From Anaeromyces robustus (Eukaryota; Neocallimastigomycota; Neocallimastigomycetes; Neocallimastigales; Neocallimastigaceae): 52,038 nucleotides of DNA. Both the position numbers and the translations under genes were made by a program. The stretch spans positions 1 to 52,038 of the forward strand of contig MCFG01000441.1 of assembly GCA_002104895.1 (NCBI GenBank), given 5' to 3'. The notes under the pieces were generated by a model. The model was given only the letters and a program-made list of their open reading frames with translations. It was not told the origin of the DNA and searched no databases. Below are positions 14,051-37,689 of this stretch, piece by piece (position 1 is the first letter of the stretch; every line of letters starts with the position of its first letter).

Positions 14051-14082
<32 letters not shown>

Positions 14083-14163
14083 CTATTTTCTATTATAATA
14101 CATTTATATTTTTTTTATTTTATTATTTTTTTTTTTTATATAGATTCTTATCAGCCTTATCAA

Positions 14164-17100
14164 ATGGATCATACGAACTATACTAATAAGATTAACTATA
14201 TCAGACGGGGTATTAGGTGTCATGGTATTGATATCTCAGATACTTATGTTATTTTTATCCGTCGCATTCGTTCTTGGACTCTTCCAAAATTTAGAAATTT
14301 TCTTGAGAAGAATTTCCCTGAGTTTAATAATACCATCGTTGCTGTTAAACATTCCTCTCTTCTTAATGATAATTTATATCAAATTAAAACTACAGCTTCT
14401 GAGGAGAATATTAATAAATTTATTGATAGTTTCAAATTAATTATTAAAAAATGTTCCATTAACTTTCATCGATGTAGTAGGAAGAATCACAAGCCTTCCT
14501 TTGCTCTTATCAGGAGAAAACTTTGCCACTCTAAAAAGAACATTAAGGATATTACTGACTTTTCTGAAATCAACAATTCTTTTACTTCTAAGAACAATTT
14601 GAATGAATTTTCCTTTTGTCTTAGTTGGAACACTAACGGGTGGAATAACAAGAAAAGAGATGGTATTCTGTATTTCTTTAGTCTCTTTAAACCGCTATTT
14701 GTTTGTTTTCAAGAAACTGGTAATGGTACTAATTCTAATAATGTTATTCCTTGTAAAATCACTTTACCTAAATATAAATATTTCTGTAAGAGAGCAAATA
14801 ATACAATTCCTGGTTTGAGAGGTTTATATATCTTTTATAATAGGTCTTTACAGACTTCTATTGAAGATTTTTCTTTGAATTATATTATCTCAGTTACGAC
14901 ATATTCCTTGTGGAACTTCACTAAGTGTTCTATTGGAAATATTTATATACCTCAGAAAGGGCATAGTTTACACCATAAATCTGCTAAAGCAGAAGCTTGT
15001 ACATGGTTTTCTCTTCACTTACATCATCCTTCTATTCTCCTTGGCGATTTTAACATTAATCTTGAAGATATTCAAAATTGGGTTTCTAATATAAATGGCT
15101 GGTATTTATTTCAACTCAATGGTTCTCCTATCTCGTGGGTAAGTGGAAGTCGTTCCTCTGCTATTGACCATGCTATTATTAATGAACCCATGAAAAATCT
15201 TCTGTCTTCAGCTTCAATTATTGATTTCTCTCCTATCTCCGATCATAAGCCTCTTCTTGTTTTTGGAAATTATTTTGATGATAATAATACTTTCTCACTC
15301 CCTAAAAAACCAGCTCGTTGGAATAGAATCAAATGTCTGGACGAAAGTATTAAAATTGCTACTAGTAATAGATTTAGTATTCTTATGAAGGAATGTACAG
15401 ATAATTATTATTCTTCTAATGCTATATATGATATGTTTGTATCTACTGCTAATTCTATTGCTGATGAATTGGAAATTATATCTACTCCTGATATTCATGA
15501 ATCTATGTTTCATATGTCTCAAAAAATCTTTAACCTTCAGAAACTCAAAGTTAAGGCTTACAAAGATATTAAAAAATTGGGTTCTGTTCGTGCCCTTGAT
15601 GATTATATTAGACTTATCAATAATTATCAGAAGCTGTGTGATAATATCCACAAGATGTGTAATCACTTTCGTATGCTTGAATATCAACATTGGGTTTCAA
15701 TTGGGTGTCAGTTGGCTATTAATAAAGATTCTAGGAATTGGTGGAAATGGATCAAAAAGAATACTAAAATTGGTAAATCATCTAACTTTTCACTTCATCC
15801 TATTAAAGATAACGATGACAACATTGTTTATTCTTCTCGTGAACAACTTAACGTTTGGCATGACCATTATGAAAAGTTAGCTTCTGATTCTACTGGTCAT
15901 AGTTTATATAAACCTTTTTGGTCCAACCCTGCCAACCATAAGTTATATAACTTCAGCAATAATATAGAGTGGGATATTAATGGTGAAATTAGTATTGAGG
16001 AAATTCGATCAGCTATTTCTGATATCCCTAAATTTAAAGCTTCAGGTCCTGATGATGTTCCTATTGAATTTTTTAAAGCTATTTCTACTGATCTTGGAAA
16101 CTCCGATGACTCTTCTGATATTACTAATTATGGTCTCTCTTTTCTACATTTATTTTACAACCGTATTTGGGATGGTGACTTTCCGGATTTATGGAATACT
16201 GCTTGTATTGTTTCTATCCCTAAAAAAGGAGACTTATATGACTGTAATAATTATAGAGGTATATCCCTGATCAATAACTGTATTAAAATTATCTCAAAAA
16301 TTGTTACTACCAGAATCTCAACATATGCTTACAAGAATAATTTCATTAGACCTGAACAATTTGGTTTTCGTAATAAAGAAGAATGTATCAGTTTATTTGT
16401 CTCCATTCGTACTATATGTCAGACCAGACAGAATATGGGAAAAGATACTTATTTGGCTTTTTTAGACCTTAAAAAAGCTTATGATTCAGTTCCTATTTAT
16501 AATATTCTGAATAAACTTGAATGCTTAGGAATTAGAGGAAAATGTTATAATTTCCTTAAAAACTTATACTTATCTTCCAAAGCTTGTGTGAAACTTGACT
16601 CTCAATATTCGGATACTTTCAATATTGAGAAAGGTGTTAGACAGGGTTGTCCCCTCTCTCCTATCTTATTTAACCTTTTCATCAACGATATTTTTCGAGA
16701 TTGTAACGAATATGGAGTTTGTATTGATAACGAATACTGTTGTGGGGGCCTCTTTGCCGATGATATTGTCCTTTGTGCACCTACTAGAAGTAAACTAAAT
16801 AAGCTTTTGAAAAAAGTTAATGATTGGGCTAAATTTAACCTTATGGAATTCGGAATTGGTAAATGTGGAACTACGGTTGTAAAAGCAGAAAATTCTAAAG
16901 TTAAAGGTGACCCTACCTTTTACCTTGCTGGTCAAATTATTCCAAAAACTAATTGTTATACGTATTTGGGAATTCCTTTTGATAGTGATTTATCTCTTAA
17001 ACCGATAATTAAATCGACGAATAATAAAGTTAGGAAAGCGCTTTTTTCTGTTAGAGGATTTTTAATTAATCCTTATATGCCTATATCCTTCAAGAAATCA

Positions 17101-18156
17101 GTTTTTAATTCGGTTGTTGTCAGTCAAGTATCATACGTTGCACCTTTACTTGGATCTAATAAAACTAGAACAAACGGTGCTCAAAGGCTAATTAATAAAG
17201 GACTCTCTTGGATTGCAGGTCTTAGGAAGCGCTCTTCCTTCATATCTTTATATAATGTATCTAAAGATCTTAATATTCCTCCTCTTTCTGCCAAATGTGC
17301 CATTGCTCAAGATAAATGTTTTAAGAGATGGGCAGACTCTAATTGTATTATTTCCAAGTTAGTTACTATTATTCCGAAGATGAGAAAATACACATGGGCT
17401 AAAGAAAGCAGAACTTTATCAAAGAAACTTTCTAAAATTGGCTCTAGAGAAGATATCTTGACTTTTTATTGGAATAGAGATGTCAAAAAAGACTCCGTTA
17501 AAGCTGTTACCTATTGTGATAATCACCTTGAATTATCTCGTGATTATTTACATCTTGAACTTGAATACCCTAACTTGGCTTATGGCTTTAATTGGCTCCT
17601 CAAAATACGTAGTGGTTATAAATTCAATAGTGAAATTGCTAAAGCCGCTAAACTTGTATCCGACTCTTGCCCTGATTACTGTCCTTGTTGTAAAGGCGGT
17701 AGTCAAACCTTCGAACATTGGATTTTAGAATGCCCAACATTCGATCATTGGCGTTCTAAGTTATTTGGCAATCTTGAAACCATTTATTTGTATGTTAATC
17801 GAAAACCTTTAGTTAGTTCTGATAATATCAACTTTTCTAATAATTTTAATAATAACTACAATAATAATATTTATGATAATATCTATAATAATAATAGCAG
17901 TAGTAATAGTAATATTAATATTAATAGTAATAATAATGGTAATAGCAATGATAATAGTAATATTAATAATGTTAGTAATAGTAATAGTACTAGCTTATCT
18001 ACATATTTTCTATACAACTACTCTCAATTCATTAATAATTTAACTATCAACAACATTTTTTTTGGTTTTAATTACTTCAACAATTTCTCCTCCTTGGAGA
18101 ATTCTTCACGAAATAATACTTTCTTAGTTTCTAATAGTTTTATTCATTATTATTAA
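14164..18156 (+). CDS. LINE ORF: AP-type endonuclease and reverse transcriptase
   Basis: 1330 residues from ATG 14164. An in-frame ATG at 14080 lies in poly-T-encoded Phe/Tyr sequence and is less likely to be the start. Residues ~15-95 may form an RNA-binding fold. The endonuclease covers ~150-365: SWNTNGW, QETG, GDFNI and SDHKPL match the catalytic Asn, Glu, Asp-Asn and Asp-His sites. The RT covers ~620-940: KASGPDDVP, NNYRGISL, LAFLDLKKAYDS, GVRQGCPLSPILF, the catalytic LFADDIVL and TYLGIPF. A zinc-knuckle-like CPCC...H...C lies near 1173-1190. A ~55-residue Asn/Ser tract follows, so the C-terminus is unusual. The ORF nicks the target and primes reverse transcription there. It has no internal stop and may encode an active protein. 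Confidence 0.85.
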   Translation: MDHTNYTNKINYIRRGIRCHGIDISDTYVIFIRRIRSWTLPKFRNFLEKNFPEFNNTIVAVKHSSLLNDNLYQIKTTASEENINKFIDSFKLIIKKCSINFHRCSRKNHKPSFALIRRKLCHSKKNIKDITDFSEINNSFTSKNNLNEFSFCLSWNTNGWNNKKRDGILYFFSLFKPLFVCFQETGNGTNSNNVIPCKITLPKYKYFCKRANNTIPGLRGLYIFYNRSLQTSIEDFSLNYIISVTTYSLWNFTKCSIGNIYIPQKGHSLHHKSAKAEACTWFSLHLHHPSILLGDFNINLEDIQNWVSNINGWYLFQLNGSPISWVSGSRSSAIDHAIINEPMKNLLSSASIIDFSPISDHKPLLVFGNYFDDNNTFSLPKKPARWNRIKCLDESIKIATSNRFSILMKECTDNYYSSNAIYDMFVSTANSIADELEIISTPDIHESMFHMSQKIFNLQKLKVKAYKDIKKLGSVRALDDYIRLINNYQKLCDNIHKMCNHFRMLEYQHWVSIGCQLAINKDSRNWWKWIKKNTKIGKSSNFSLHPIKDNDDNIVYSSREQLNVWHDHYEKLASDSTGHSLYKPFWSNPANHKLYNFSNNIEWDINGEISIEEIRSAISDIPKFKASGPDDVPIEFFKAISTDLGNSDDSSDITNYGLSFLHLFYNRIWDGDFPDLWNTACIVSIPKKGDLYDCNNYRGISLINNCIKIISKIVTTRISTYAYKNNFIRPEQFGFRNKEECISLFVSIRTICQTRQNMGKDTYLAFLDLKKAYDSVPIYNILNKLECLGIRGKCYNFLKNLYLSSKACVKLDSQYSDTFNIEKGVRQGCPLSPILFNLFINDIFRDCNEYGVCIDNEYCCGGLFADDIVLCAPTRSKLNKLLKKVNDWAKFNLMEFGIGKCGTTVVKAENSKVKGDPTFYLAGQIIPKTNCYTYLGIPFDSDLSLKPIIKSTNNKVRKALFSVRGFLINPYMPISFKKSVFNSVVVSQVSYVAPLLGSNKTRTNGAQRLINKGLSWIAGLRKRSSFISLYNVSKDLNIPPLSAKCAIAQDKCFKRWADSNCIISKLVTIIPKMRKYTWAKESRTLSKKLSKIGSREDILTFYWNRDVKKDSVKAVTYCDNHLELSRDYLHLELEYPNLAYGFNWLLKIRSGYKFNSEIAKAAKLVSDSCPDYCPCCKGGSQTFEHWILECPTFDHWRSKLFGNLETIYLYVNRKPLVSSDNINFSNNFNNNYNNNIYDNIYNNNSSSNSNININSNNNGNSNDNSNINNVSNSNSTSLSTYFLYNYSQFINNLTINNIFFGFNYFNNFSSLENSSRNNTFLVSNSFIHYY

Positions 18157-18682
18157 TTATAATAATTTAGTTAGTAATGCTTCAAGTGGGGTAAATTTTC
18201 ATTCCAACTCGTTGGAATGGAGTAGGGTATATTATTTCCTTCTTGGTGGAAGAGTTAATCATTATAACTTGGGGAAAGAGGAGTGGAACAGTCTTTGTAA
18301 GGCGCAACTTAAACCTAGCACCTTTTCGGATGTTCCACTTTTGGTACGTACATCCGCACTTTTACTTAGAATTATGCCTACTGTTAGTGGCCAGATCTGG
18401 TCATTATTCAATAGGTATCCCAACAATCTAACCAAGAGCGTCGAAGCTGACAATTCAGTAGGACAAGACAGTAGGTCACACGCATCTAATAATGATAATA
18501 ACTTTCCAACTTGATTTAATTTAATAATATACACTATACCATATGAAGTAATTATAAATTATTACTATCTATTAAATAATAAATTATTATTCTTTATTAG
18601 ATTAAGTTTTAATATGTACAATTACTTTATAACATGTACTTTTTAAATTAAATTTAAATAAAATTTTCATTATTTTATTGCC
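18157..18682 (+). other. LINE 3' UTR
   Basis: Non-coding sequence between the ORF stop and the poly(A) tract. It contains a TTCCAACTCGTTGGAA hairpin near 18202. Short frames on both strands (18212-18514 plus, 18262-18534 minus) overlap each other and resemble nothing known, so I treat them as UTR. Confidence 0.6.
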
Positions 18683-18711
<29 letters not shown>

Positions 18712-18714
<3 letters not shown>

Positions 18715-18936
18715 TATTTTATTGTGTATTTCTATTATTATATTATTTTATTGTGTATTTCTATTATTATCATATTATTTTATTGTGTATTTCTGTTATT
18801 ATCATATTATTTTATTGTGTATTTCTATTATTATTTTATTGTGTATTTCTATTATTATTTTATTGTGTATTTCTATTATTATTTTATTGTGTACTTCTAT
18901 TATTATCATATTATTTTATTGTGCTATCTTTTTTGA
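18712..18936 (+). repeat. Minisatellite, TATTTTATTGTGTATTTCTA unit
   Basis: Around eight units of TTTTATTGTGTATTTCTATT occur at spacings of 24 and 32-33 bases, depending on whether an ATCATATTA spacer is present. They lie in the right half of the palindromic element, directly after the LINE tail. Confidence 0.85.
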
Positions 18937-19010
18937 GTTGTACAATGAAATTTTTTGATTATTTTATTATAAAATTTCGTTGTACTAGAATTTTAGACAA
19001 TTAGTTAAGT
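18937..19010 (+). mobile_element. Palindromic element family M, right part
   Basis: GTACAATGAAATTTTTTGA and TAAAATTTCGTTGTAC form the inverted core shared with copies near 31474-31575, 33550-33690 and 44830-44880. Confidence 0.6.
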
Positions 19011-19089
19011 AACGATGTGAATTAATAGCTATTTTAAGGATTTAATTATTTAAAAAATAAACTAAGTATAATTTTCTATTGAGTAGTAT

Positions 19090-19339
19090 CTACTGTTCAA
19101 ATAAAAAAATATATTTTAATATTTAATAAAAAATTAAAACGTTATTTTAATAATACTTAATTTAAAATTATATATGGAATATTAATTAATTATTGTAATA
19201 TTCTAATTTGCTTCTAAATTAATGATATAAATTAATATAAACATGAAGAAAAAGAAATATTTTTTTTAACAAAATTTTACATTTTATTAACAGTTTTTTT
19301 TTTTCTGAAAAATAGTTTTAAAAATTTTATAAAAATTTT
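19090..19339 (-). repeat. SINE-like body fragment
   Basis: AT-rich blocks (TTTAATAAAAAATTAAAAC, TTAACAAAATTTTACA) match the body of the copy at 2640-2780 but lack the tRNA-like head. Confidence 0.45.
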
Positions 19340-21000
19340 ATAAAAAAAAAGCATAAATTTTTTAATTTTATTTTGTTTTTGTGCTACTTTCTGTACCTTG
19401 ATGTAATATTGGAACCACCGTTCCCATTACATCAAGGTATAAAATGACTTGTAAAACTTTCCTACATTTTTCTATATTAAATTGAAAATTTCCAATAAAT
19501 ATTACAAATATAAATTTATTAATATTAAATTATATTATTAATATAAATATTAAATATATTATTATGAAAAATCAATATAAAACGTATTAATAACAATTTA
19601 AATATATATTATTATTAATACCAAAAATTCTATTATTAATATCAAAATAAAATTATTAATATCAATACAAAAATTATTAAAAATTATAAATTATATTATT
19701 AATACCAAATCAAATTTTATTAATATCACTAATTATTATTAGTATTAATTTTATTATTAATATCAAAATATTTTATTAAACTCAATTATAATAAATTATT
19801 AATAGGAATTGAAATTACTAATTTTTTATAATCTTTGTAAGATTATTAAACTACTAAATTAATAGCTTAATAATCTAATTACTTGTTTAAAATTTGCTTA
19901 ATTAAATATTAATTAAAATTATTTTATAAAACCTAATTATTTTAAAAAGTGTGTTTAATTAATTAATTCTTGTATACTAATAAAGCTATTTATTATAATA
20001 ATTACGAATTATTAATAATTTTTTATAATAAATATATATAATATCATTATTTAATATAACAATTATATATAATATTATTATTTATTATAATAATTATGAA
20101 TTATTAATAATTTTTTATAATAATTATATATAATATTATAATATTATTATTTATTATAATAATTATGAATTATTAATAATTTTTTATAATAATTATATAT
20201 AATATTATTATTTATTATAATAATTATGAATTATTAATAATTTTTATATAATTATATAATAATTATATATAATATTATTATTTAATATAATAATTATGAA
20301 TTATTAATAAATTTTTATAATAATATTACTATTTATTATAATAATTATACATAAATTATTATTTATTATAATAATTATATATAATACTATTATTTAATAT
20401 AATAATTATATATAATATTATTATTTTTTATAATAATTATATATAATATTATTATTTATTATAATAATTATTAATGTTTTATAATAATTATATATAATAT
20501 TATTATTTATTATAATAATTATTAATTTTTTATATTAATTATATATAATATTATTATTATAATATTTTATTTTAAATATCATAAGATTATTTAAATAATC
20601 TAATAATATATTCAATATATTGAATAATATTATTAATTTTATTATTATTTAATATCGATATTAATATCATATTATATTACAAATTATATATTGTATTATT
20701 CGTTAACATATCACATTAAATTAATGTATTAATATTTTATGTTTTATTTTATATTATTATTATCAAACTTACAAAGTATAAAAGAAAATAACATTAGGTT
20801 ATAATTAATATTCTTTGTAAGGTTATTAAGTTATATTAATATTATCAATATTATATTTTAAATAAAATTTATTATTAAAAAGTTAATATTAAAAGTGTTA
20901 TTTATTGTAACGGAACGGTAGTTCCAATATTACAATTGACACCAAAATCTGAAGTAAACACAAACAAAATAAAATTTAAAATAAAAGATACTTATTGCAA
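19340..21000. repeat. AT island bounded by inverted hairpins
   Basis: A perfect 14-bp stem lies at 19394-19407/19426-19439, enclosing GGAAC-CACC-GTTCC. A second hairpin at 20904-20936 (GGAAC-GGTA-GTTCC) is its near copy in the opposite orientation. Outside both, AATTTTATTTTGTTT is also mirrored. The interior (about 19500-20880) is almost only A and T, with ~60-bp degenerate repeats of ATAATTATATATAATATTATTA. It looks like a non-autonomous element with inverted ends, but no family is recognised. Confidence 0.5.
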
Positions 21001-21059
21001 TATCAGAACACCTTTCCTTTGTTAACCTGAAAGGTCGGTGTCGAGATATATATATTAGT

Positions 21060-21600
21060 AAGATTTAGTTTTAAGTTTTATTTTATTTTTATTTAAAATT
21101 TGTTTTATTAGAATATAGTTTTATTAATTATTAAAAATTAATAATAACTAATCTTTGTAGTATTTCAAACTACTTATGAATTAATTATTACTAATATATA
21201 TAAAGTTATAAAAGAATAAAAGCACAAAGAAAAATATTTTAACTAAAAGTTTTACACCTATTTATACTTTTTGCGGAAAAATAGTTTTAAAAATAAAAGT
21301 TCATAAAAAATAATAAAAATTGCTAGAAACTAAGATATTTTGTTATAAAATGAATCTCATAGAAAAATAAAGAAATATTATATAATTTTTTCTTAAAGTT
21401 TCTAATTTTATTCCATGTAATTCTATAAAGAAATACAGAAATAAAATACAGAAACAAATACAGAATAAAATACAGAAATTTATAATAAATAAATTTAAAA
21501 TAAAATTTTTATAAAATTTGGAACAAGGTGTGAGTCGAACCCAGAGTGTTCGCCCAGATAGTCATAGTTACTAACCACTAGACCATGGTTACTGTTTTAC
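21060..21600 (-). repeat. tRNA-derived SINE-like copy
   Basis: On the minus strand the head at 21596-21525 reads GTCTAGTGGTTAG (box A) and GGGTTCGACTC (box B), spaced as in a tRNA. It is followed by an ATTTCTGTATTTTATTTC body. This is the best-preserved copy of the family in the window. Confidence 0.65.
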
Positions 21601-22495
21601 TAATTTTAGTACAGGATTCAAATAAAAAGAGAAATTTTATGGATTTAAAATAAAAAAAATAACACAAATATTTTTATAAATAGTTAATTATTAGGAATAA
21701 TAAATAATAAATAATAATAGTGTAATAAATTACATTAAATGTAATATGTAAATTAAACAAAAATTTAATTATTTATAACCAATAAGATTAAAATAATAAT
21801 AAGTAAAAACAATTATATAAGAAATATATAAAATTAAGTAGAAAGGGGGGTTCTTTTATTATTAATAATTAGTTTTATAGGAATTAATTAGGAAAACTAA
21901 AATAAAACTTATAGGATTTAATAATATTTAGGAAATTGGTTATAAATTTTTTTATAATAGTTAGATATATTAAAGGATTATATCTAATTAATATTAATAA
22001 TTTTATATACGATATTTAAATAATAATACGACTTTTATAATAAATAAATAAATAAATAAAATACGACTATAAAATAAATAATCTTTATACATTTAATATT
22101 TAATATTCGAGTGTAAATTCTATTTATCTTCTTAATAGAATATATTATTTTATTAATAAATAATCTTGCTAACTCACACAAAATTGATACTTTATAAAAA
22201 ATACGTATCAATTTAGAGATTCGTTACATTTATTATAATTAAATAATTAGAGTGTTATTTACATTGCGATTCTTTAAAGATTATTTAATTATTATTTAAA
22301 TATTATTTAATATATTAATTATTATAAAATTATATATTTAGTTATTAGGCTTAGGAACATTTATTTAAATTAAAAGATAATTCACTCGGATACTTAATAT
22401 ATTAAATTAATATTTTTAATATTTAATTTAATATTGATAATTTTCAAAATCAGTTAAATTAGTATTTTATTATTAAAAATTTCATTCTTTATCAA
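21601..22495. other. AT-rich intergenic DNA, no gene seen
   Basis: Only simple AT-rich sequence was found, with short AAATAAAT runs. Confidence 0.6.
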
Positions 22496-22640
22496 TGTAA
22501 CCATTGTCTAGTGGTTAGTTACTATGACTATCAGGCCGAACACCTTAGGTTTGACTCATACTCTTTCCACTTTCAAAAATACATTTTTATTTAAAATTAT
22601 TATTATAAATTTCTGTGTTTTATTTCTGGATTTTATATAT
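22496..22640 (+). repeat. tRNA-derived SINE head, plus strand
   Basis: TTGTCTAGTGGTTAGTTACT (box A) and AGGTTTGACTC (degenerate box B) lead into ATAAATTTCTGTGTTTTATT. The copy is cut short where the satellite begins at about 22644. Confidence 0.65.
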
Positions 22641-22643
22641 AAC

Positions 22644-23632
22644 AGACTACCCTACGTAATATTTAAGACTACCCTCCGGAACAATATAAATTATCCTAAT
22701 AAGATTTTCAGACTACTCTACATAAATTATTTTAGCTACAATAAATCACCCTACATATCTTATTTAGACTACCCTCCGGAATAAAATGAACTACCCTACG
22801 TAATATTTAAGACTACCCTACGGCATTTTTGAATCACTCTAAGTAAAATCTTAGACTACTCTTCCGAATATTATGGAATAATTCTTAGTAAAATTTTGAC
22901 TACCCTACGTATATTATTTCAGACTACCCTCCGTATTACTATAACTACCCTACGTAAAATTTTAATACTAACCTAAAAATGAGCTATCCTAAAAACGAAC
23001 CACCTTACTTAAATTCTTTAAGACTACCCTACGTATTACAGGACTACCCTACGGTAATTTTTGAACTTCTAAATCTTAGACTACTCTTTGGAATATTGTC
23101 GAATCACTCAAGTATTATATAAGACTACCCTACGGACAAATATAAACTACCCTCCGTAAAAATTTATGACTACCCTCCTGATTAATATAAACTACCTACG
23201 TAATATTTTCAGTCTACCTTACATAAATTATTTTATCTAATATAAACCACCCTACGTAAATTGTATAAGACTACCCTACGTAAATTCTTTAAGACTACCC
23301 TCCAGATTATTATAAACCACCCTACGTAAATTTTACGTTTCTATTTTGCCTACTTCCGTTATATTGTTCTATCCGACTACCCTACGTAAATTATTTAAGA
23401 CTACCCTTCGGACTATTTTAAACCACCCTCCGTAAAATTTAAAATTACCCTATTAGACAACCCTACGTAAATTCATAAGGATTAACCTCTAGACAATTAT
23501 ATACCACCCTACGTAAATTATTTTAGACTACCCTACGTAAATTTTTGAATAACTCTAAACAAAATAACAGACTACTCTTAAGAATATTATTGAACCACTT
23601 TAAGTTAATACTAGACTACCCTACGGAAAACA
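22644..23632 (-). repeat. Satellite array, inverted copy
   Basis: Reverse complement of the array at 1-1140: GACTACCCTACGTAA and GACTACCCTCCG recur every 25-35 bases. It is flanked on both sides by SINE-like sequence. Confidence 0.9.
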
Positions 23633-23639
23633 CTGAAAA

Positions 23640-23840
23640 AAATTTTTTTTTTTTTAGCTTTAAATGAATCTCATAAAAGAAAAGAAAATATAATTTTTTT
23701 TAAAATTTCTTGTTTTATTCTACGTACTTCTATAATAAAATACAAAAAAGTACAAAAATAAATTATAGATATTTATAATAAATAATATTAAAATAAAATA
23801 TTTTTTTTATAAAATTTAAACCAAAAATAAAAATCAAATG
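23640..23840 (-). repeat. SINE-like body fragment
   Basis: ATGAATCTCATA...AAATTTCTTGTTTTATTC...TACTTCTATAATAAAATAC matches the body of the copy at 21340-21500. The tRNA-like head is missing. Confidence 0.5.
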
Positions 23841-24234
23841 AACTCAATGTAAACAAACTTTACTGATTTATTTATTTAATATTTTATAAATAATATTTTT
23901 TATATATTTTTATTTATTTATTTTTTTTAGTTATGTTAATACATTAATTATATGAGTAATAATTATTAATTATTATGGATTTATTAGATATTGGATTTTT
24001 TTTATAACAAAAATTATGAAAAATAATAAAATGCAATAATGAAAATAGTATTGGTTAATGAATTTATTATAAATGAAGTATTTGAAAAAGAGAAAGGAAA
24101 AGAAAAAAGTTATATAATAATATTACACATATTATTTTTATTTTGTTTTAATATTAATAAATATTATTTAAATAAATTCTATAATTATTGTGTTATTAAT
24201 GATTATTATTAATTAAAATTATTTGAAAAAAAAA
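23841..24234. other. AT-rich intergenic DNA, no gene seen
   Basis: Simple AT-rich sequence; no frame or family recognised. Confidence 0.6.
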
Positions 24235-25410
24235 AAACATTGCGAATAGTATAACTGTATGATTTTTGTTTTTTTGTTATTTCTACCACTAATAAATAAT
24301 GAGTAAAAATAAAAAGAATAAAATTTTTAACAATTGAAAAATAGTTTACTTTTTTTTTAAAATTGTTTTTTAATTGTATTTGCGTTATTTAAATATTATT
24401 AAATATAGAATATAGTTGCATTTTATAATTTTTTTCATAAAGATAGAAAAATATAAATGATATATAAAATATATTAAATAATATATTTTATATGAAGGTA
24501 TTCTTTCTATAAATAACTTATGAATTAATAAGAAAGTATTTTGAATGGATTACGTTATTAAAAATAACGTAATGTAATGTTACATAACAACGTATCATTT
24601 CAAAAAAAAATTGTATTGATTATATGAAATAAAATAAATATTAATTATGATTTGTAATAAAATCTTTTATTATGGTAAATAAACTGGTATATAAATATTT
24701 ATTTATTGTTTGAATGGTATAAGAAACTTGTTTTATTTTTAATTTCGTTTTTATCTAAATAACATTTTTAATTTGTTATAATTGAAAATGAGTAATAAAT
24801 ATTTTGATAATAGAAATATTTATTACTCATTTTTTTTTTTCTTTTCTTAACTTATAATTAAAAGGATTACTTTTTACTTTTATGTAAAATAATATAATTT
24901 TACATAAAAGTAAAAGATATATTTATTTATTCATTTATTTATTTCTAATACAAATAAATGTGTTAACTTTTGTTTTGATATTTGCTGAATGATGGTTCAT
25001 ATTTTATAATTCTTTACGAATGAAAAAAAGTAAAAATATGAATATAGAAAGATATGAGTATCTTTCTAACTATTTATTAATTATTTTATTTTTAAAAGTT
25101 TGAAGTTTTTTAAAATATGTGTTTTTGTTTGAAAACATTGAAAATGAACAGATGAATTATTCATCTTTAAAATGTGTATAGTCTTTTTCTTTTTTTTTAT
25201 AAAGGATAGAAAATAATAAGGTATTGCTAATAGTTTTTGATCTTACAATAAAAGATCATCTATTAATTATTAATTGCTTTGAAATAGACGAAATGAAATA
25301 AATAATATATTTTATAAATATATTATTTCATTCATTATTATTATTAATTTTTTTTGATTAATTATTGAATTTGTTTTATAATATATTATTCATAATAATA
25401 TATTTTTATT
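24235..25410 (-). other. Diverged duplicate of scaffoldin 3' flank
   Basis: Read on the minus strand it aligns in order with 11070-12420 but with many indels. It is clearly less similar than the adjoining coding copy. Confidence 0.7.
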
Positions 25411-26393
25411 TTAAAACATAAAAACGTGAATTAAAATAGCAATAGCTATAGCAAAGAATGATAATTGATAACGTAATTCAATACCACTAACATTACATTT
25501 TTCTGGATTTTCTTCATTTTCTACACATTCTACATAACCTAATTGTTCCATAGAACAAATCTTAATGTCATCAGTGTCTTCATCTACCTTAACATAATTA
25601 TTAACACAAACAAGGTCAAACGTAGATTTAGTTTCTTCTACGTTGTAAGTACAGTTGGTGAAAATACCACTAACTGATTCTAAGTAGTTCTTTCCACGAC
25701 GACTAACAATAGCTGTAGAATTGTTATTCTTCTTCTTCATCTTCACCAATACGTCTAGTAAAACTACTGCCACTACTACTACCAATATCTTTAATAGCAG
25801 CACGGAAGATACCAGTAACGACAACAACCGTTTTACAATCAGTATCACTCTTACAACGAATTAAAACATTAGGAACACTGGATGGATAATAACCATCTCC
25901 TGTGGCTTCAGCTGCACATGTAACCACTTGACTATTTTGTACACAATTAATAATAGTTTTATTACTTTCACTAGAGTCTGCATTAGCATAGTAATTAACT
26001 GTTGGTGTAAATTCACTACATGTAGATGAACTAGAACAATAAATAAGTAAAGTACTAACATAGGTCAAATAATAACCAGTCTTAGCTTTGGCAGCACTAC
26101 ATCCTCCATTCTTAGTACAACTAATAATAGCATAAGAGGATTTATTAGAACCAGCATTAACATATTTAACTTTAGATTTAGATGGATAATAAGTACATGC
26201 TGTTGCGGATGTACATCTAATATATCCAGCACCCTCATGTCCAACATAATAGCCTACTTCAGCAGTAACGGTAGAACAATTATTACTTTGACATTGAATA
26301 AGACTATTAGTAGCTGAATCATAACCACTATTTTCAAAGTATGAGGCTACTTTTGGTTTAATACTGACACATTTACCATTACTAGCACATTGA
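25411..26393 (-). pseudogene. Truncated scaffoldin copy
   Basis: On the minus strand this matches gene positions 8525-9191 and then 10751-11069 of scaffoldin-like gene 1. A 1562-bp stretch is missing between two GAA-ending runs at the acidic GEDEEEE segment, giving an immediate in-frame TAA (25724). The last ~120 residues (NNSTAIVSRRGKNY to LIHVFMF) therefore lie in another frame. The aligned coding parts are nearly identical to gene 1: the six repeats are the same at protein level, and the tail differs by a Thr-to-Ile change. It has no start or signal of its own, because its 5' end joins a gypsy gag-protease at 26393/26394. It is not expected to make a functional scaffoldin. Confidence 0.85.
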
Positions 26394-27398
26394 CCAGAAT
26401 CAATTAATACTCTAGCTTTGTGTTCATTTACTTCGTTAGTACTAATATAGAATTCGATTACATTACTCTTTTCAACTTCCTTTTTTATTTCAGTCACCTT
26501 TGACTCATGTAATTTCGAAGAAGCTCCTGGCATTAGTCCCTTTTCTCTGAGAATCTTTTTGATTACCTTCATTTGTTTTGGTCTTTTTCGATTTGGACAG
26601 TTGAATTGTAAATTACCCTTCTGTTTACAGAGAAAACATACTCCATCTTTTCTTTCTTTTTCGAAAGATTTTTTACTTTCAAGATATGGACTTCTGAAAT
26701 TTGGGCGGTAGTTAAGACTTCTTTCCCCTCTCTTGATACGGTAGAAATCAACTTCCATAGGGTCGTTACCATGTTGGTAGTAGTCTTCCAATCTCTCGTT
26801 TCTCTTGACTAGGTTTTCAACTGTGACTACTGTCCTATACAATCTTTCGAGAGAGTTTGGATTGGGGTTAACAATTGCAATTTTCTCTCTCAACTGTTGT
26901 TTTAGTCCCCTAATAAACATGTGGATCTTGGCGCTCTCATTAAAGTCAGAACTCTGACTTATTCTTTGAAATTCGGTTATGTACTCAAATACATGACCAT
27001 AACGCCTTTGTCTTAAGTTGCAAAGTTTTTCATTTGCAACCACCCCTTCGGTAGTGTAATCACCGAAGTTCGACTTTAATTCTCTTATAAATGCATCGTA
27101 ATTATTTAAGAGTGGACTATTGTTCCTTCGTAAAATTGATGCCCACTCTAAAGATCGTCCAAGTATATACGACATTTAAAAACCTTACTTTTGTGTCGTC
27201 ATGCAAAAATCTTTCTGGATTGGATTCCATGGCTTGCTCAGCGCGGGTTAGGAATCCATCCAGTTCTTCTCGTTTTCCGGTGAATAAAGGTGGTTCATTC
27301 ACCATTTTTATGTGTTGGTTATTGTTATCGCCCATCGTTTGATTTTCGTTTAAAGATAGGTTCTGAAGAGCGTTGTTTATTATCAATAATTCTGACAC
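26394..27398 (-). pseudogene. Ty3/gypsy gag and protease start, frameshifted
   Basis: On the minus strand the first frame starts at 27398 (MSELLIINNALQ) and shifts at about 27176-27180, where a run TTTTTAAATG seems to carry one extra base. The second frame (from 27175, MSYILGRSLEW) has the gag core, then the zinc knuckle CFLCKQKGNLQFNC near 26610, whose usual His is Asn. It then reaches the aspartic protease start RVLIDSG at 26394-26415. There the element stops and scaffoldin repeat coding continues in frame for 222 residues. The rest of pol (RT, RNase H, integrase) is absent. Gag packages element RNA in working copies; this one is broken. Confidence 0.8.
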
Positions 27399-27684
27399 TT
27401 TGGAACTTATAATTTGTTTAAGTATTCACGAAATATTCTTCGATTTAGATTTTTTTTTTTTTTTTATTAAATTATATTTTTTAGTGAAAGTCGACCAGGA
27501 CACTATCCCGATTGCAATGGGTGTCGGTCGAGTTTCTGATATAAAATAATAAAAATTTTTTTTTTTTTTTTAATTAGGTCCCCTAAATTGGTAACTTCTA
27601 AACTGATAGCCTCTAATCTGGTAGTGTCTAAACTAGTGTCTAAACTGGTAGCTTCTAATCTGGCGGTTGTTGTAACGTATTTAC
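27399..27684 (-). other. Leader of the gypsy element with 15-bp repeats
   Basis: This non-coding stretch upstream of the gag start has two poly-T tracts and a short GC-richer block (27488-27538, with GTCGACCAGGACAC). At 27586-27668 about six 15-bp units of the CCAGATTAGAAGCTA / CCAGTTTAGACACTA type are found on the minus strand. The LTR end of this element is not resolved. Confidence 0.5.
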
Positions 27685-28312
27685 TGTAAAAGATTGATGA
27701 AAATAGATTACAACAACAAATAAGAAACACTAACACAAAAATTAAAAAAATACATTAATAAAAATTTGTTTTATTAAAATATATGTTTTATTAATTTTTT
27801 TTAAGAATTAAAAAATATATATTAATAACAATTACATTTTTTCCAAATTACATAAAATTTTCTTGACTATTTAGATTTTTATTAATTATAATATAATATA
27901 TTTTCCCTATTTATTTATAATATATTTCTATATAAAACTATCCTAATAAATTTTATTTATTAATAAAATATAAACTATAACTAAATTTAGTAAACTAAAA
28001 TTGCTAATTAAAACTAAATACTATTTTATTTGAATTTATTCTATTTATTATTTATTTATTATTTTAATATTAATACTATATTTATTATATATTTTGAATT
28101 TAAAAACAATGGAAAATTTCATAAATTAAAAGTGAAAAAAGTAATATTTCACAAAATAAATTAATAATTTATTTTGTTTTGAACTTTATTTAATTGATTT
28201 AAATTATTGTTTCACAATAATTTTACAGAAATATTTCATGTAATTCAGTTACTTGCAAAGTGGCTGAATTTACAATTAAAGATATTATAATGTGGCGCAT
28301 AATATCTTTACA
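27685..28312. mobile_element. LTR, family A copy 2
   Basis: Begins TGTAAAAGATTGATGAAAA and ends ATAATATCTTTACA, the TG...CA ends of an LTR, and aligns over its whole length with the solo LTR at 39641-40277. The flanks (TTTAC and GTTCC) do not match. Its position after the copia RNase H remnant fits a 3' LTR of that minus-strand element, though no matching 5' LTR is seen. An 11-bp stem AAAGATATTAT/ATAATATCTTT encloses AATGTGGCGC near the end. Confidence 0.7.
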
Positions 28313-28377
28313 GTTCCAGTGTATGTTATTTTATAATTTTTAGTTGAATTTAAATATTTAAATATATTTATTACCTT

Positions 28378-29956
28378 ATACCAGTCGGAAATAGTAGGAT
28401 TTTCTGCAGTACGAGAAGCTTTGCTAACAGCAAAAGAAATATCGGGGCAACTACATTTTGCTAAATATGGTGTTTTTGTTTTACGAGTATTATTGCGTTG
28501 ATGACATGATTATCACGAGAAAAACAAATGAGATTGAAAAAACAATTAAAATGATAAAAAATAATTTTAAAATATCAAATTGTTAAGAAATTAATTATTT
28601 ACTAGGAATAAAAGTTGAGAAAAGGGGATATAATTATCCTATTTCTCAAACAAACTATATTGAAAATATATTATTAAAATTTAAAATCATATACCTACGA
28701 GACAGTTAGTATTTCCATTTCGAGTTCTTTTAAATATGCAAGGCTCAGAGATTAATTGTTCGAAATCATTGTTCTTTAGGAATGAAGTAATGGTATAATT
28801 CCATTGACGGCCTGATTGCTTTAAGCCGTACAAAGCTTTATTTAGTTTCCAAAAACCTTTACCGTAGTTTTTGTCACCCTGCGGAATTGTTACATATATG
28901 TTCTTGTCTAATTTTGCATTAAGATAGACGGCTTTAATGTCTAATTGGAATATCTGCCAGTGAAGACGTGTTGCTAAAGAAATGATTAAGTTTGATACTA
29001 TCAATACTAAGAATACGGGAGAACGTTAATTCATAGTCAATTCCTCTGATTTGACTATATCCTTTAGCGACTAATCTTGCTTTAAATTTAATTATATTGT
29101 TATTGCTATCACGTTTTATTGTAAAGATCTATTTAGTTTTAATTGGTTTTTTATTATTGAGTAATTCCGTAACTATAGTCATGATGTTGTTATTATATAA
29201 ATTTTCCAATTCTGCTTTCATAGCTTCAATCCATTTTTTTTTATATTAGTGATAACATCATAAAATGTAAGAGGGGCATCCAAACTTATATTTGCTATTT
29301 CAACGTTGGGTTCAAAAGTAGCAATTCTTTTTGTCCTACCATTTTCAATTATGCTTCTAGATCTTTTTTAGGCAAGTTATTGATTATTTCATTTACTCTA
29401 ATTTTCTTGTTATTCTTATCTTCGTTATTTTCTTCCAATTTTCTTTTGACAATACTATTAAAATATTCTTGATTTGTTCTTTTCTTCTTATTATAATAAA
29501 TTGAATCAAAGCTATGTCTTCTTAACTTTTTATTTTTAACTTCTATAATTTTTGGATTAAAACAATATTCATTTTCTGGAGAAATTTTGAAGGTTTTTAA
29601 ATTTTCAATTAAATCTTCTATAGTAAAACTAAGTTCGGGATCATTCTTTTGAATTTTATCGTGACTTTTATTTTCCGTAGTAACTTTTTATTCGTAGTGA
29701 CAGAATAATTGTTTTGTATATTTTCACTTGTTGTGACTTCATATATTTTTCGTATATTATTATTATTATTTTTATTTTGGGAAATGTTTGGTTGAGTACC
29801 ATCTTTAATTTCAGTACTGGATTCTATTTCTTATTCAGGTGTTGAATTATTTTTGTTATCGGATGTAGTTGTTTGCTCATTTACTGAAGTATCGTAAAGT
29901 TTATTACTTGTGAGCGTGTCATTATTATTAATGGTGGATGTTTTACATTCATCATC
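28378..29956 (-). pseudogene. Ty1/copia pol remnant: RT and RNase H
   Basis: On the minus strand a linker region (from 29956) leads to RT. The best open part, 29004-28687, reads FQLDIKAVYLNAKLD, WKLNKALYGLKQSGRQW and CIFKRTRNGN. RT similarity extends upstream through stops to about 29250 (KWIFTIKR- and FKARLVAKGY-like pieces). The next RT block, with the catalytic VDDMIITRK and INYLLGIKVEK, lies on the plus strand at 28494-28686. A minus-strand block with PDISFAVSKASRTAENPTIS (RNase H entry) follows at 28500-28378. So a ~190-bp piece has flipped in place. Frameshifts, stops and the inversion make it non-functional. Confidence 0.8.
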
Positions 29957-31051
29957 TGTAAAGATATTTAACGCCACAGCGTAAAATTCTTAAATGTAAT
30001 TTAAGCCACTATACGTAGTGATTAAAATTACATAAAATAATTCTGTAAAATTATTGTTTCACAATAATTTAAATCAATTAAATAAAGTTCGAAACAAAAT
30101 AATTATTAAATTTTAATTTTTAATTTATAAAATTTTTCATTGTTTTTAAATTTAAATTATATAATAAATATTTATTAATATTAGAATAATAAATAAATAA
30201 TAAATAAACTCAATTGAAATTATTTAGTCTTAGTTTTAATAGTTAATTTAAAATTTCTATTTTTAGAAATAATAAATAAATTTAATAAATTATAAAGTTT
30301 AGTTAGTTAGATAGTCCGTAAATAAATAGAAATTAAATATAAATAAATTAATATAATATATAATAAATATAATTATGAAAAAATATAAAAATACTTCAAA
30401 ATTTCTTAAATTTTGAAAGGTGTAATAGAATTCATCCTATTATAGTTTTATTTTTTTATTTTATTTTATTATTAATATTTTATATATATACTTAGTAATA
30501 AATTTTTATTAATTAGTTAGTTAAAAAATTTAAGTCACATGTAAAAATTTAGATAGTTCGAGAATAATCTAGATATTATAAAATTTATTCGGTTAAATTA
30601 TTTACTGAATTTACGGAATAATTTAAGTTAAATTTTAAAATTGATTGGATTATTAAATTTATTCTATTGTATTCTATTAAAAAAAAAATTAGTATAAATA
30701 AGAATGATTTTCTCTGTAAAAGTGAAAATCACTAAGTTGTTATTTTAATAAAAAATTAAAATTAAATAAAATTTAATTAATAAACACACCAACCCTTGGA
30801 CTTGGTGTTACAACAAAATTAGAATAAAATAAAAAATAAATAATAAAATTAAATATATATATTAATTAGTATTACAGTGTTGTAACAATCCGTTACAAAA
30901 GGTGTAATTGTTATTAAATTTAAATATAAAATTTTAATTATTTAAATATTAATAAAAAATTATTATAATAAAACAAATTTTTATTTCGTTATTTTATTTT
31001 TTTATTTTAGTGTTTGTGTTATTGTAATCTATTTCTTATCAATCTTTTACA
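29957..31051 (-). mobile_element. LTR, family A copy 3, interrupted
   Basis: On the minus strand it starts TGTAAAAGATTGATAAG at 31051 and ends TTAAATATCTTTACA at 29957. Without the nested LTR (30421-30897 plus one AAAGG) it would be 613 bp, similar to copies 1 and 2. Flanking pentamers on the minus strand are GATAA and GATGA, a target duplication with one mismatch. It therefore looks like a solo LTR inserted into the copia pol. Confidence 0.75.
30421..30897. mobile_element. Nested solo LTR, family B copy 1
   Basis: Begins TGTAATAGAATTCATCC and ends AATCCGTTACA. It is flanked by perfect AAAGG pentamers (30416-30420, 30898-30902). Removing it and one pentamer restores the family A sequence seen at 39641-40277 (TTTTGAAAGGTGTAATTGTT in reverse). 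The inverse-orientation copy is at 35344-35777. Confidence 0.85.
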
Positions 31052-31229
31052 TTATCTATATCGTTGGAAAACTATCAGCAGATGGTAGTCTGAAATCAAT
31101 TCCAAGATTTCTTCTACAAGGTTAAGTTTGATGGTAGATTCTCTTCGAATAAAGTTTCTCGGACAAGGTGTAGTTTAAAGTCTTCATAATCCATTATATG
31201 TAGCAGTCATACCTAAAATACATTAATGT

Positions 31230-31785
31230 AAGTGATTTAGTACGTTTTACGTAACTTTAAAAACCTTATTTTATTAACGTATTTTAGCTTAGTTTTATTT
31301 TTTTATATATCTCATATAATAATAATTTTTTAATAATTCATGTATTACTTTTGATTGTATGCGTTTAGCATTATTTTCTTTAGTATATATAGGTTTATTA
31401 TTATTTATTATTATATTATTTATCTCATTTTATTAAAAATTTTTACCGTGTTACATTTCTCAGAGTTTCACAATGAAAATTTTTTGATATTATTATCATT
31501 TTATTTTATTGTGCAACATTTCCAGTTCTCAATAAAATTTTTTGATTATTTTATCATAAATTTTTGTTGTACTACTCTTAAGATTGTTTCACAAGAAAAA
31601 TTTTTCTGATTCATATTTATATATATATCTTGCATGGATATACTTTGTTTTTCATAAATTTTTTCTATATATATAGTTTTATATATATAGTTTTTTTACT
31701 CTATTTTCATCTTTTTTCTCTTTTACTTTATTTTTAACGCATACAATTCCAAATAATTAATAAATTCATCATTAAAATCCTAAAG
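31230..31785 (+). repeat. Palindromic element family M, copy
   Basis: Longest copy in the window. From the left edge TTTAAAAACCTTATTTTATT it runs through TATCTCATATAATAATA to a core CTCAATAAAATTTTTTGATT / AAATTTTTGTTGTACTACTC. Its right edge contains GCATACAATTCCAAAT, also present at 33800-33820. No ORF. It resembles a miniature inverted-repeat type element. Confidence 0.5.
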
Positions 31786-32400
31786 CTAAGAAAACACCTT
31801 TTTTGCTGTTGTTAAATTTTCTTTGTAATGGGCTATACATCCAAACGTTTTTACGTATTTCAAATTAACTTTCTTTTTAAAAAATATTTCATTAGGAATA
31901 CCATTTCCAATTCCTTTATGGGGATTAATGTTGTATAAAAAATTTCCATAATTGACAGCGTAATCCCAGAATCTAGTATCTAATCTGCTAGAGGCTAACA
32001 TGGTTTTTGCACAATTGACAAGAGTTTGATTGAACCTTTCAGCCTTTCCATTGATTTTGGGAGTAGACTTTACTGATACCATTTTTTGAACAGAAATTTA
32101 TGATCTTTTTTTTTTAAATTCCTTTCCATTATCCTGTTTTAAAATATTTTATTTTAAGATCATATTTATTAGTAATAATTTTAAAAAATTTTAAAAAATT
32201 CAATAACAGTTTTTGAAACTTCCTTTTTATCTTTCAATAAGAATACTCATGATTTTCTGGAATATTCGTCAAAGTTAGAATGAATCTTTTACCAGTACTC
32301 GAGGTTAAGTTCATTGGTCCTTTTGGAAAATTTCAGAGAAGAAAAAATCACCATGAGTTGTGCCAACAACTCTCCCTGCGTTTTCGAAGGTTATTTCATG
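31786..32400 (-). pseudogene. Ty1/copia integrase remnant
   Basis: The minus-strand frame 32082-31786 reads STPKINGKAERFNQTLVNCA and FWDYAVNYGNFLYNINP, the typical copia integrase core end. Upstream, broken by stops, GPMNLTSSTGKRFILTLTN (near 32310-32260) matches the start of the core domain. It is probably part of the same element as the RT remnant at 28378-29956, separated from it by inserted elements. Confidence 0.7.
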
Positions 32401-32559
32401 GGAAGATTAATGGCTACTGGATAAAGTCCTTTATTCAAAAAACATTAACAAGAACTTGATCAGTAGTATAAAAATAACAAAAAATTGGTATATATTCAAA
32501 TATCAAAAAGATCAACAATAAAACTTACTTAAATTTAACCAATAAAATTAATACTATCA

Positions 32560-32735
32560 TTGCCCAAATTATACCAAACAGTTAAAACATAGCCATAATA
32601 AAATTTACTAGTTTAAATCCCAATATTAACTCCATAGAAATTAACTACAATCTAAAGACCACCGATAAAGAACTTCTGGCTGTTAAAGTTTCTTTTTCTA
32701 CTTAGTGTCACTTTCTATTAGGTGCAAAATAAAAA
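32560..32735 (+). pseudogene. Ty3/gypsy RNase H fragment
   Basis: A plus-strand frame reads EINYNLKTTDKELLAVKVS then CHFLLGAK with one internal stop. This is the conserved TDKELLAV region of gypsy RNase H. Nothing else of the element is recognised next to it. Confidence 0.5.
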
Positions 32736-32846
32736 AAAGTTTTATATATATTTAATATTTAATAAATGATAACATTTTATTTATATAGAAATTTTAATAT
32801 TTTATCTAAAAAAAAAAGATGTTATTGGTATTAAAAGAAAAAAATA

Positions 32847-33299
32847 AAATCATCCTGCATATTTTATTGCTTTATTGTTTTTTTATGTAATTTAAATTCA
32901 GTAATTTCAACTTTGGATAAAAATTTGGCAATAAAAAATATTGATAGTGATAAACCAGGGATATTATTTAGAAATAGCATAAAAGTCTCTAGTGATTGCA
33001 GATATAATCCAGCATATGAAAGTAATTTTGCAGAGTATTAGGATAATGACGTTTACAAAAGAATAAGAATAATGTCTGAAGCTTGTCCAATAAATGACAG
33101 AACAAAAATTATTTATGCTAATTATTGCGATAAAAGTAAATGGAAAAGAATGGATAATATGTTAGCCAAGGTTTATAAAAATGAAATCAAAGTTGATATA
33201 ATACACAAAGACTACAAATTAATATTGACATTCCTTACTAATGGAGATGAATGTACCACACAAGTAGAAATCATTAAAGGGAATAGTTATCAAGTTTAA
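32847..33299 (+). pseudogene. Broken small secreted protein, unknown
   Basis: I do not recognise this family. One frame runs from about 32847 to the TAA at 33297-33299. It has a hydrophobic, signal-like start (CIFYCFIVFLCNLNSVIS) but no in-frame ATG, then a Cys-containing body (SSDCRYNPAYESNFAEY). A single in-frame TAG follows near 33039, and the frame then continues as DNDVYKRIR and 75 residues from ATG 33072, with Cys-containing MSEACPINDR and NGDECTTQVEI. Base composition is richer than the surroundings, which supports former coding. It may be a decayed secreted protein, or a gene in which the ATG 33072 frame is only a fragment. Confidence 0.4.
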
Positions 33300-33479
33300 G
33301 AAATAAATAAATAATAAAATATAATAAAATAAAAATATAAAATGTATAGAATATTTTAATATATATATATTAAAAATTATATATCAAATTATTGAATAGT
33401 TTACAATATGTAAATAAATAAATATGTAAATTGGTAAATAAATAGATATACAAATAAATTAAACCAACAAACAAAATAT

Positions 33480-33850
33480 TATTTTTTAATTGTTTTTTTT
33501 ATAATAATATATTATATTACTTTTACTTTCTAATTTTTCTTTTCATAATAATTATTAGAGTTACACAACGAAATTTTTTGATATTATCAAAAAATTATTA
33601 TTATCAAAAAATTTCGTTTTATTTTATTGTATAACCTTTTTGAGTTTAACAATGAAATTTTTTGATTATTTTATTATAAAATTTTGTTGTACTACTCTTA
33701 TGATAAATTCACAGTTAAAAATTTTCTAATTATTATATATATGCAATAGTTTTTTACACTTTTTTACTTATTTTCTCCTTTTTTTTATTATAATTTTTAA
33801 TTCATACAATTCCAAATTTAATAAAATAATTATTAAAAAACCTAATCCTG
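33480..33850 (+). repeat. Palindromic element family M, copy
   Basis: Contains ACACAACGAAATTTTTTGA and AAAATTTCGTTTTATTTTAT arms, a second core TAACAATGAAATTTTTTGAT / AAAATTTTGTTGTACTACTC, and the shared right edge CATACAATTCCAAATT. Confidence 0.5.
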
Positions 33851-33899
33851 AATATCACGTGAATTTTAACATTATATTTAAGTAAATAATTTTTAGAAA

Positions 33900-34947
33900 A
33901 ATATTCTAAAAATTGTAGAAAATTATTATAATTTTTTTTTGGCAAATACTTTTTATTTTAATATAAATATCAAATATATATTTAGGGTTTATAAACGGTA
34001 AGTTCGAAATAGCTTTATAATAACTATATATCATTATTATTCTTCATTAAAACATAATATATTTTTTTGTTTTTCTAATGATCTTTTGTAATGCCAAACA
34101 CAATATTTAATATTTATTTCGGGAAAAACTTTTTTTGCGGTATTAGATATACTTTGTTCAAAATCACAATGTAAATTAATTGGAGTAATTAATGTATTAC
34201 TCCTAAATTTATTTGCATTTTTTTTTATTTCTTCAAATAATGCTTCATATGTTGCTTGTTTTTTATTTTTTAATATAGAAATGGAAGTAGTGTAAAACAT
34301 ATTAAATTGTTCAACATAAGTTCTTGTTATAAATAACTGATAACTAAATTTCGGTGCAACATAAAATGTACCATCGGCGAATATATTTTCATGATAATTC
34401 GAAAATAAATATGCTTGGAATGGTGATTGAAAAATTATTAGATCTGAATTTTTAAATGTCATAAAATTTTTCATTTCTTTTTTTTGTTTTATAATATTCT
34501 GATTCAATGGGAATATCATCGAAATTTTTTATGTCTGGAGGTAATTCTTTATTTATATTTCTTATTATTTGAGATTTAATTGTACTATATTCACATATAA
34601 GTCCCATTTCTTGAGAAACGTTATTATATATATGTTTAGGTTTTATATCCAAAAAAATAGAATTTTTCCTAATTTCTTCCTTAATTTTATGTTTTGTTAC
34701 TGATATAGATACATCAATTTCTTTTTCGAGATGGTTATGTAAACTTTCATATTTTAAAATCTCCTTTTTTATCATTTAAAATAATTAAAGATTTACATTT
34801 ATTTAAAGTCTTATATTCAGTGCATCTATAAATTTTTGATTTATCTTTCCTTTTATATAAAAAATTAAATTTGTATTTTTTATTAATAATAATTTGTTCA
34901 TTTCCTCTATTTGTTTCACTTATTTCAATTTCTATATTGTCCTCCAT
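33900..34947 (-). pseudogene. MULE-type transposase, broken copy 1
   Basis: Read on the minus strand over three frames. 34947-34747 holds an FLYWCH-like zinc finger (NFLYKRKDKSKIYRC, KC, then HNH in the next frame). 34775-34452 is a linker. 34519-34037 is the transposase core, with FADGTFYVAPK (first catalytic Asp), HCDFEQSISNTAKKVFP (second Asp region) and the CX2H motif in YCVWHYKRS. A later fragment, AISNLPFINPKYIFDI, is readable to about 33950. MULE transposases cut and paste DNA through a DDE site. Two frameshifts make this copy non-functional, but it is the best preserved of three. Confidence 0.8.
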
Positions 34948-35343
34948 TGGTAATTAAAATTTTTCAATTAAATATTATAATAAATATACTTTTAAATGCT
35001 TTGAAACTCTTTTTTTAATTAATCATATAATTATTTATATGATTATTTAATGATTCAGTTTTTTTTTTATTAACAAATAAATAAAATAATAAATTATATT
35101 TTTAATTATATATTTAATTAATTATTTAATTATTTTTAATATTTTATTTTTTATATATTAAAAAAATATTTAAAAAATGAACAATTTACTTATTTATTAT
35201 TTACTTATTTTTTATTTTTTCTTATTTTATATTTTAATGTTATGTTTAAAAAATAAAATGTCTAATTATTTTTTATTTTATTTTATTTTATTTTTATTTT
35301 ATTTTTGAATATTTAAAAAATAAAACATTTATTTAATTATTAA
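34948..35343. other. AT-rich flank of MULE copy 1
   Basis: Simple AT sequence with TTTTATTTTA runs, probably the degraded terminal region of the transposon. No gene seen. Confidence 0.5.
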
Positions 35344-35777
35344 TGTAACGGATTGTTAACAACACTGAAATATTAATTAATATATATTTTTTAATTTTAT
35401 TATTTATTTTTTTTTAATTTAATTTTTTATTAAAATAACAACTTAGTGATTTCCACTTTTACAGTGAAAATCATTCTTACTTATACTAATTTTATTTTTA
35501 ATAGAATACAATAGAATAAATTTAATAATCCAATCAATTTTAAAATTTAACTTAAATTATTCCGTAAATTCAGTAAATAATTTAACCGAATAAATTTTAT
35601 AATATCTAGATTATTCTCGAACTATCTAAATTTTTACATGTGACTTTTAATTTTTACATGTGACTTAAATTTTTTAAGTAATTAATTAATAAAAATTTAT
35701 TGCTAAGTATATATATAAAATATTAATAATAAAATAAAATAAAAAAATAAAACTATAATAGGATGAATTCTATTACA
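35344..35777. mobile_element. Solo LTR, family B copy 2
   Basis: Begins TGTAACGGATTGTTAAC and ends GAATTCTATTACA; the target duplication ATTAA is exact (35339-35343, 35778-35782). It aligns with the reverse complement of 30421-30897. A TACATGTGACTTTTAATTTT duplication inside it is absent from copy 1. Confidence 0.85.
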
Positions 35778-35782
35778 ATTAA

Positions 35783-37362: not shown

Positions 37363-37689
37363 TAAAATAATATATAATTTAAAAAAATAAAATAAAAAAT
37401 ATATATAAATAAATGAATAGAAAATAAACAAATAAATAAATATTTCTTTTTATTAATTACTTAATTACTAAAAAAAAAAAAAAAAAAATAAAAATTCATT
37501 ATAAAATTAAATATATTTATTTTATTTTTTTGATAAATGAATAATAATAAATAAAAGAATAAATAGTAAATAATATAACAATATTATATATTTTATGATA
37601 ATAAATAATAAATAAAAAAGCAATAAACTTTAGACACTTTAAAATTAAATCTATTAAATTTTTTTGATTTGAAAAATTTTTAATATAAA

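Follow-up and report, generated by a model that had tools for sequence, protein, structure and literature searches.

A gag–scaffoldin open reading frame in Anaeromyces robustus, probably a pseudogene formed by recent break repair

In the genome of Anaeromyces robustus, one open reading frame runs from the gag gene of a gypsy retrotransposon into a series of scaffoldin repeats. Does this frame encode a new chimeric protein, or were its two halves brought together by a chance rearrangement or by the assembly itself? These three readings had been raised in a first-pass annotation made from the DNA letters. The stretch of DNA analysed here (the window, 52,038 nucleotides) is the entire contig C381 of a 70.2-Mb, 769-contig genome. 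With a probability of about 0.8, we consider the fusion to be a recent product of DNA-level break repair, a pseudogene whose frame is open by accident.

A decayed gag in front of scaffoldin repeats

The 483-codon minus-strand frame is present where it was first reported, and the gag/scaffoldin junction at 26394|26393, with its reading frame preserved, is borne out in the assembly (Table 1). The six repeats can be seen by eye, together with a partial seventh. A scan for C-X(3-7)-C retrieved six Cys pairs past the join and skipped one pair with wider spacing.

Table 1. Coordinates of the features of the gag–scaffoldin locus in the window.
Feature	Position	Strand	Remark
Chimeric open frame, most probably open by chance, 483 codons (truncated gag, six scaffoldin repeats, frameshift stop)	25724–27175	−	
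Segment common to C56:7213–4899 (pre-LTR flank, gypsy LTR, leader, decayed gag to the first protease residues)	26394–28711	−	
Gypsy-type LTR region	27685–28312	−	Approximate boundaries, drawn from repeat matches
Join 1, gag | scaffoldin, blunt, frame kept	26393–26394	−	0 bp common to nearest parents
667-bp scaffoldin block	25727–26393	−	666/667 identical to 8525–9191 (+) of the window
Join 2, block | tail, frameshift leading to stop codon 25726–25724	25724–25735	−	5-bp microhomology
Coding sequence of a scaffoldin C-terminal tail, in a different frame from the fusion	25407–25727	−	
Scaffoldin 3′ flank	23866–25406	−	BLAST pieces against the window gene flank
Scaffoldin-like ORF of 2309 aa, from which the 667-bp block was probably taken	4140–11069	+	
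Third scaffoldin-like frame, 502 codons, running off the right contig end; region collinear with a long C56 ORF	50532–52037	+	

The gag origin of the N-terminal part is supported by two Pfam matches above their curated cut-offs, Retrotrans_gag at residues 6–92 (E 2.3e-11) and Ty3_capsid at residues 4–126 (E 6.5e-9). Further matches of the frame, to DUF4939 and Gln-synt_C, are both under their cut-offs. The zinc knuckle that had been read downstream stands in part: a CX2CX4NX4C motif is present, but Asn replaces the His of the canonical motif and no Pfam knuckle was found at E≤0.01. The protease start IDSG is there as described, but it comprises just the first residues of the protease.

The beginning of the frame is broken. 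Immediately before the ATG at 27175 there is an in-frame stop, and upstream of it gag lies in a different frame, likewise in contig C56. Around this ATG the gag frame is broken in the window copy, C56 and C249, whereas it is open in C442 and C422. Since C56 has the same frame break and C442 and C422 are open across the site, we take the ATG to be, most probably, an internal methionine with a stop in front of it by chance, rather than the start of gag. The fusion locus thus holds no uninterrupted gag frame with its own start. Nor is there a gag-pol flanked by two LTRs: an LTR is found upstream only, with the scaffoldin tail and its homologous 3′ flank lying downstream.

The nearest relative of this left part is C56. 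Positions 28711–26394 align with C56:7213–4899 at 99.7% identity, and the match ends exactly at 26394. Seven of the 2318 columns differ, corresponding to four substitutions and one 3-base gap; all four substitutions are clustered in 51 bases (26747–26797). Because the match includes DNA outside the LTR, we interpret it as a copied genomic segment and not as a new transposition. The gypsy copy of C56 is itself decayed, with several short open stretches and LTR-like ends that are 78.8% alike.

Collinearity with C56 resumes further along the window in six pieces, all in order and 89.7–99.2% identical, up to position 52036 (40844–41696, 41692–42500, 44438–45603, 45657–47011, 47412–49731 and 50667–52036). 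About 12 kb of window DNA (28711–40844) stands where C56 has a dispersed element of about 700 bp. The window has a copy of this dispersed element elsewhere, at 20906–21605, 98.6–99.4% identical to copies in C422, C249 and C56. The copies in C422 and C249 end in TGTAACG...CGTTACA, and those of the window and C56 seem different at one end. The plus strand of the window also carries a probable non-LTR retrotransposon, a 1358-aa open frame (14080–18156) in which domains for endonuclease/exonuclease/phosphatase and reverse transcriptase were matched.

C56 and C381 could be local alleles; we prefer to regard them as segmental duplicates in a mostly haploid assembly. RPB2-type matches number 11 on seven contigs (C155, C512, C149, C320, C223, C212 and C113) and would sort into Pol I, II and III types, with two strong ones, on C149 and C320, left unexplained. 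Chaperonin/CCT matches number 49 on 11 contigs, of which C721 and C253 are a possible pair. One haploid set is expected to have 9–10 chaperonin/CCT loci. The count of CCT contigs being near one haploid set and short of two, a mostly haploid assembly is preferred; the two copy numbers point to it without settling it.

The scaffoldin block, the tail and the two joins

The 2309-aa ORF of the window has no Pfam or PDB match, and we take its repeats to be scaffoldin from their pattern, from the label given in the first-pass annotation and from the genome context. As to the latter, the genome has at least 150 matches to CBM_10, the fungal dockerin type (150 of 150 candidates scored; 683 at first look), and none were found in 14 control genomes. 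Such a CBM_10-rich genome fits an anaerobic gut fungus. Large repeat-rich scaffoldins, with many scaffoldin homologs per strain, are described for anaerobic fungi in two studies (PMC8262932, PMC10978972).

The scaffoldin part of the frame is a 667-bp block whose nearest relative is the long ORF of the same window. The block is 99.85% identical to 8525–9191; seven other copies are 91.5–97.4% identical to it, and an eighth, in C229, is shorter and distant (71.5%). Ks between block and window gene is 0.007, as compared to 0.097–0.221 when the window gene is set against the six other paralogs over which Ks was computed (C415 and C229 were left out). The tail that follows is 318/321 identical to 10753–11073 (+), with three differences. 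Its Ks against the window gene, 0.033, falls within the range of the six paralogs (0.033–0.104), so the tail is not unusually close to this gene. Beyond the tail, the 3′ flank is near-identical to that of the window gene for about 85 bases past the stop and much more diverged further on; tail and flank together align in BLAST pieces of 82.7% (941 columns, tail included), 78.2% (271) and 80.8% (609). The rates of difference of block and tail, 1/667 versus 3/321, give a p of 0.10, or of 0.02 when the comparison is set against C56. The histories of block and tail may therefore differ, although these values are suggestive only, and one conversion tract could have extended over the block, the tail and the first 85 or so bases of flank.

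Two breaks delimit the block. At the first, TCAA had been proposed as a shared microhomology. This sequence is present in a gypsy fragment near 41460, but at the point of the join it is absent from the four closer gag copies examined: C56, C442, C249 and C422 all continue there with GGCAGAC instead of scaffoldin. Counted base by base against C56 and the window gene, the nearest parents, the overlaps are 0 bp at the first join and 5 bp at the second. The GGCAGAC found in all four copies and the 0-bp overlap speak against a TCAA microhomology with the nearest relatives. The second join, at about 25727, is a break absent from the first-pass annotation. Relative to the window gene, a net 1562 bp is missing there, and the join creates the stop codon at 25726–25724.

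Among 27 matches to the fusion region in the fungus's own genome, only that of the window itself spans the join; the remaining 26 are one-sided. We also simulated random joins of the two open frames, and the frame was open in 6652 of 20000. Retention of the frame is thus unremarkable; most probably chance preserved it at the first join, and the second join broke it. The N-terminus of the fusion is gag and the C-terminal tail of scaffoldin is out of frame past the stop at 25724, so that the repeats do not share one frame with both a secretion signal and a C-terminal anchor. The predicted fusion protein would presumably be without a secretion signal. If the LTR transcribes the frame, the product would best be described as a Gag fragment minus its own N-terminus, followed by repeats of the secreted type minus their anchor-like C-terminal end.

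Several features of the surrounding scaffoldin genes can be noted. With 8525–9191, the block forms an inverted repeat of 667 bp with one difference, the arms being 16.5 kb apart, and recombination between these arms could flip 9192–25726. At 5961–5965, the window gene is without about 0.9–1.5 kb carried by its paralogs in C422, C41 and C518. In contrast to the mosaic seen at the fusion, the duplicates C518 and C41 align over genes and flanks in one alignment of 14,823 columns (95.2% identity; pieces of at least 300 columns and at least 95% identity were listed). Some scaffoldin contigs are broken within genes, C286 starting inside one and C381 ending inside one, and a closer parent of the fusion parts may therefore be missing from the assembly.

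Origin of the fusion

The order of events and the repair pathway that we infer are as follows. The setting would be a recent rearrangement within a duplicated scaffoldin cluster. In the segment common to C56, an already defunct gypsy copy would have been broken at the start of its protease, and the broken end fused to what was left of a scaffoldin paralog; this paralog and the long scaffoldin gene of the window face each other tail-to-tail. The long gene would have supplied the intervening 667 bp, through templated insertion in break repair or through gene conversion between inverted neighbours. Should C56 represent the older arrangement, the fusion would postdate the 0.3% divergence between the two segments, and an intact frame then says nothing on selection. 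The resulting frame would be without function. A chance rearrangement product, listed as an alternative in the first-pass annotation, is thus the better reading.

The same events could have been separate, a variant that we count within the main reading and to which we give rather less than an even chance. An inverted scaffoldin gene, once complete, would have undergone two ordinary deletions, one from the gypsy protease to mid-gene and one of 1562 bp within the gene, with conversion at another time. The long homologous 3′ flank indicates that a scaffoldin gene once stood at the locus, and near-identity covers the block, the tail and the first bases beyond the stop. Inverted neighbours are able to convert each other, which makes gene conversion between them plausible on general grounds. 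However, the block is relatively closer to the window gene than the tail is, by the weak statistics given above, and the conversion tract would have to stop, coincidentally, close to the second join. An assembly artefact is unlikely. The inverted 667-bp block could have misled the assembler, or a chimeric read could have made the gag join; in one version the paths into and out of the block were exchanged, which would invert 9192–25726. The near-perfect inverted repeat and the scaffoldin contigs that break within genes (C286, C381) are in line with such an error. Nevertheless, the gag|block join lacks any nearest-parent overlap on which an overlap assembler could join, and the tail copy differs by substitutions of its own and in its far 3′ flank. 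In addition, the window gene (4140–11069) aligns collinearly, block included, with other paralogs, and an exchange would make both copies abnormal. The assembly join envisaged in the first-pass annotation thus keeps a small share of the probability, lowered by the blunt join and by a 99.7% identical sister copy that reaches to the exact breakpoint.

Two further explanations appear very improbable. A reverse transcriptase might have switched from gypsy RNA to scaffoldin mRNA, the cDNA being then inserted, and the gag and scaffoldin parts do have the same sense, 5′ to 3′. However, C56 shares the left flank past the LTR, and the right side runs about 1.5 kb into the homologous 3′ flank, with no new insertion ends seen there. 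RNA template switching was rejected, both flanks being common genomic DNA. Insertion of a gypsy element into a scaffoldin gene was rejected as well: the outer flank of the LTR matches C56, without a scaffoldin match there. Alternatively, the LTR might drive a Gag–scaffoldin protein maintained by selection, in which case the 483 open codons and the upstream LTR would be the parts of a functional chimeric gene. Going by the sequence, we think this hardly credible: the gag start was lost through a lesion common to C56, the parent segment is 0.3% from C56, leaving little time for decay or selection to show, an in-frame join has a one-in-three chance, and the fusion occurs once among the 27 own-genome matches. 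The same very low probability is given to transcription of the frame from the LTR into a cytoplasmic Gag capsid fragment with six dockerin-binding-type repeats, which would be a chimera caught soon after its birth. The proposal of a chimeric Gag-repeat protein therefore finds no support in a gag copy that was already broken, a frameshift stop after the repeats and a frame that one third of random joins would keep.

Comparison with known systems and meaning of the locus

The fusion resembles the gag of Ty3/gypsy elements (PF03732, PF19259) in its capsid domain, in the LTR-like repeat upstream and in the IDSG downstream of gag; it differs in being truncated after IDSG, with a broken start and without pol. 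Some host genes, of the Arc type, have captured a retrotransposon gag. As in these, a Gag capsid lies in an open frame with other sequence, but the fusion is without a start of its own. With scaffoldins of the ScaA type from Neocallimastigomycota (PMC8262932, PMC10978972), it has in common Cys-pair repeats like those of the long ORF of the window, and a host genome rich in CBM_10 dockerin-type domains. Unlike them, it has only six repeats, gag in front and a frameshift end. PMC11724301 and PMC8421209 deal with templated insertions and with template switching mediated by microhomology. A piece copied from elsewhere between overlaps of 0 and 5 bp is like such MMBIR and end-joining junctions, although the inverted insertions named in the abstract of PMC11724301 are mostly 5–34 bp, and the 667 bp of the fusion are far longer. 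A literature search returned no paper title on a gag–scaffoldin fusion, a result of little weight, as the hits were mostly off-topic.

If a chimeric protein were made after all, this would be a very young fusion of gag to a host gene; nothing that we saw points there. Annotation pipelines could call the frame a ‘gag-scaffoldin protein’, for which pseudogene is the better label. At this single locus one can read how gut fungi come to have duplicated scaffoldin genes that hold stretches in common with inverted neighbours and fall into decay among transposons.
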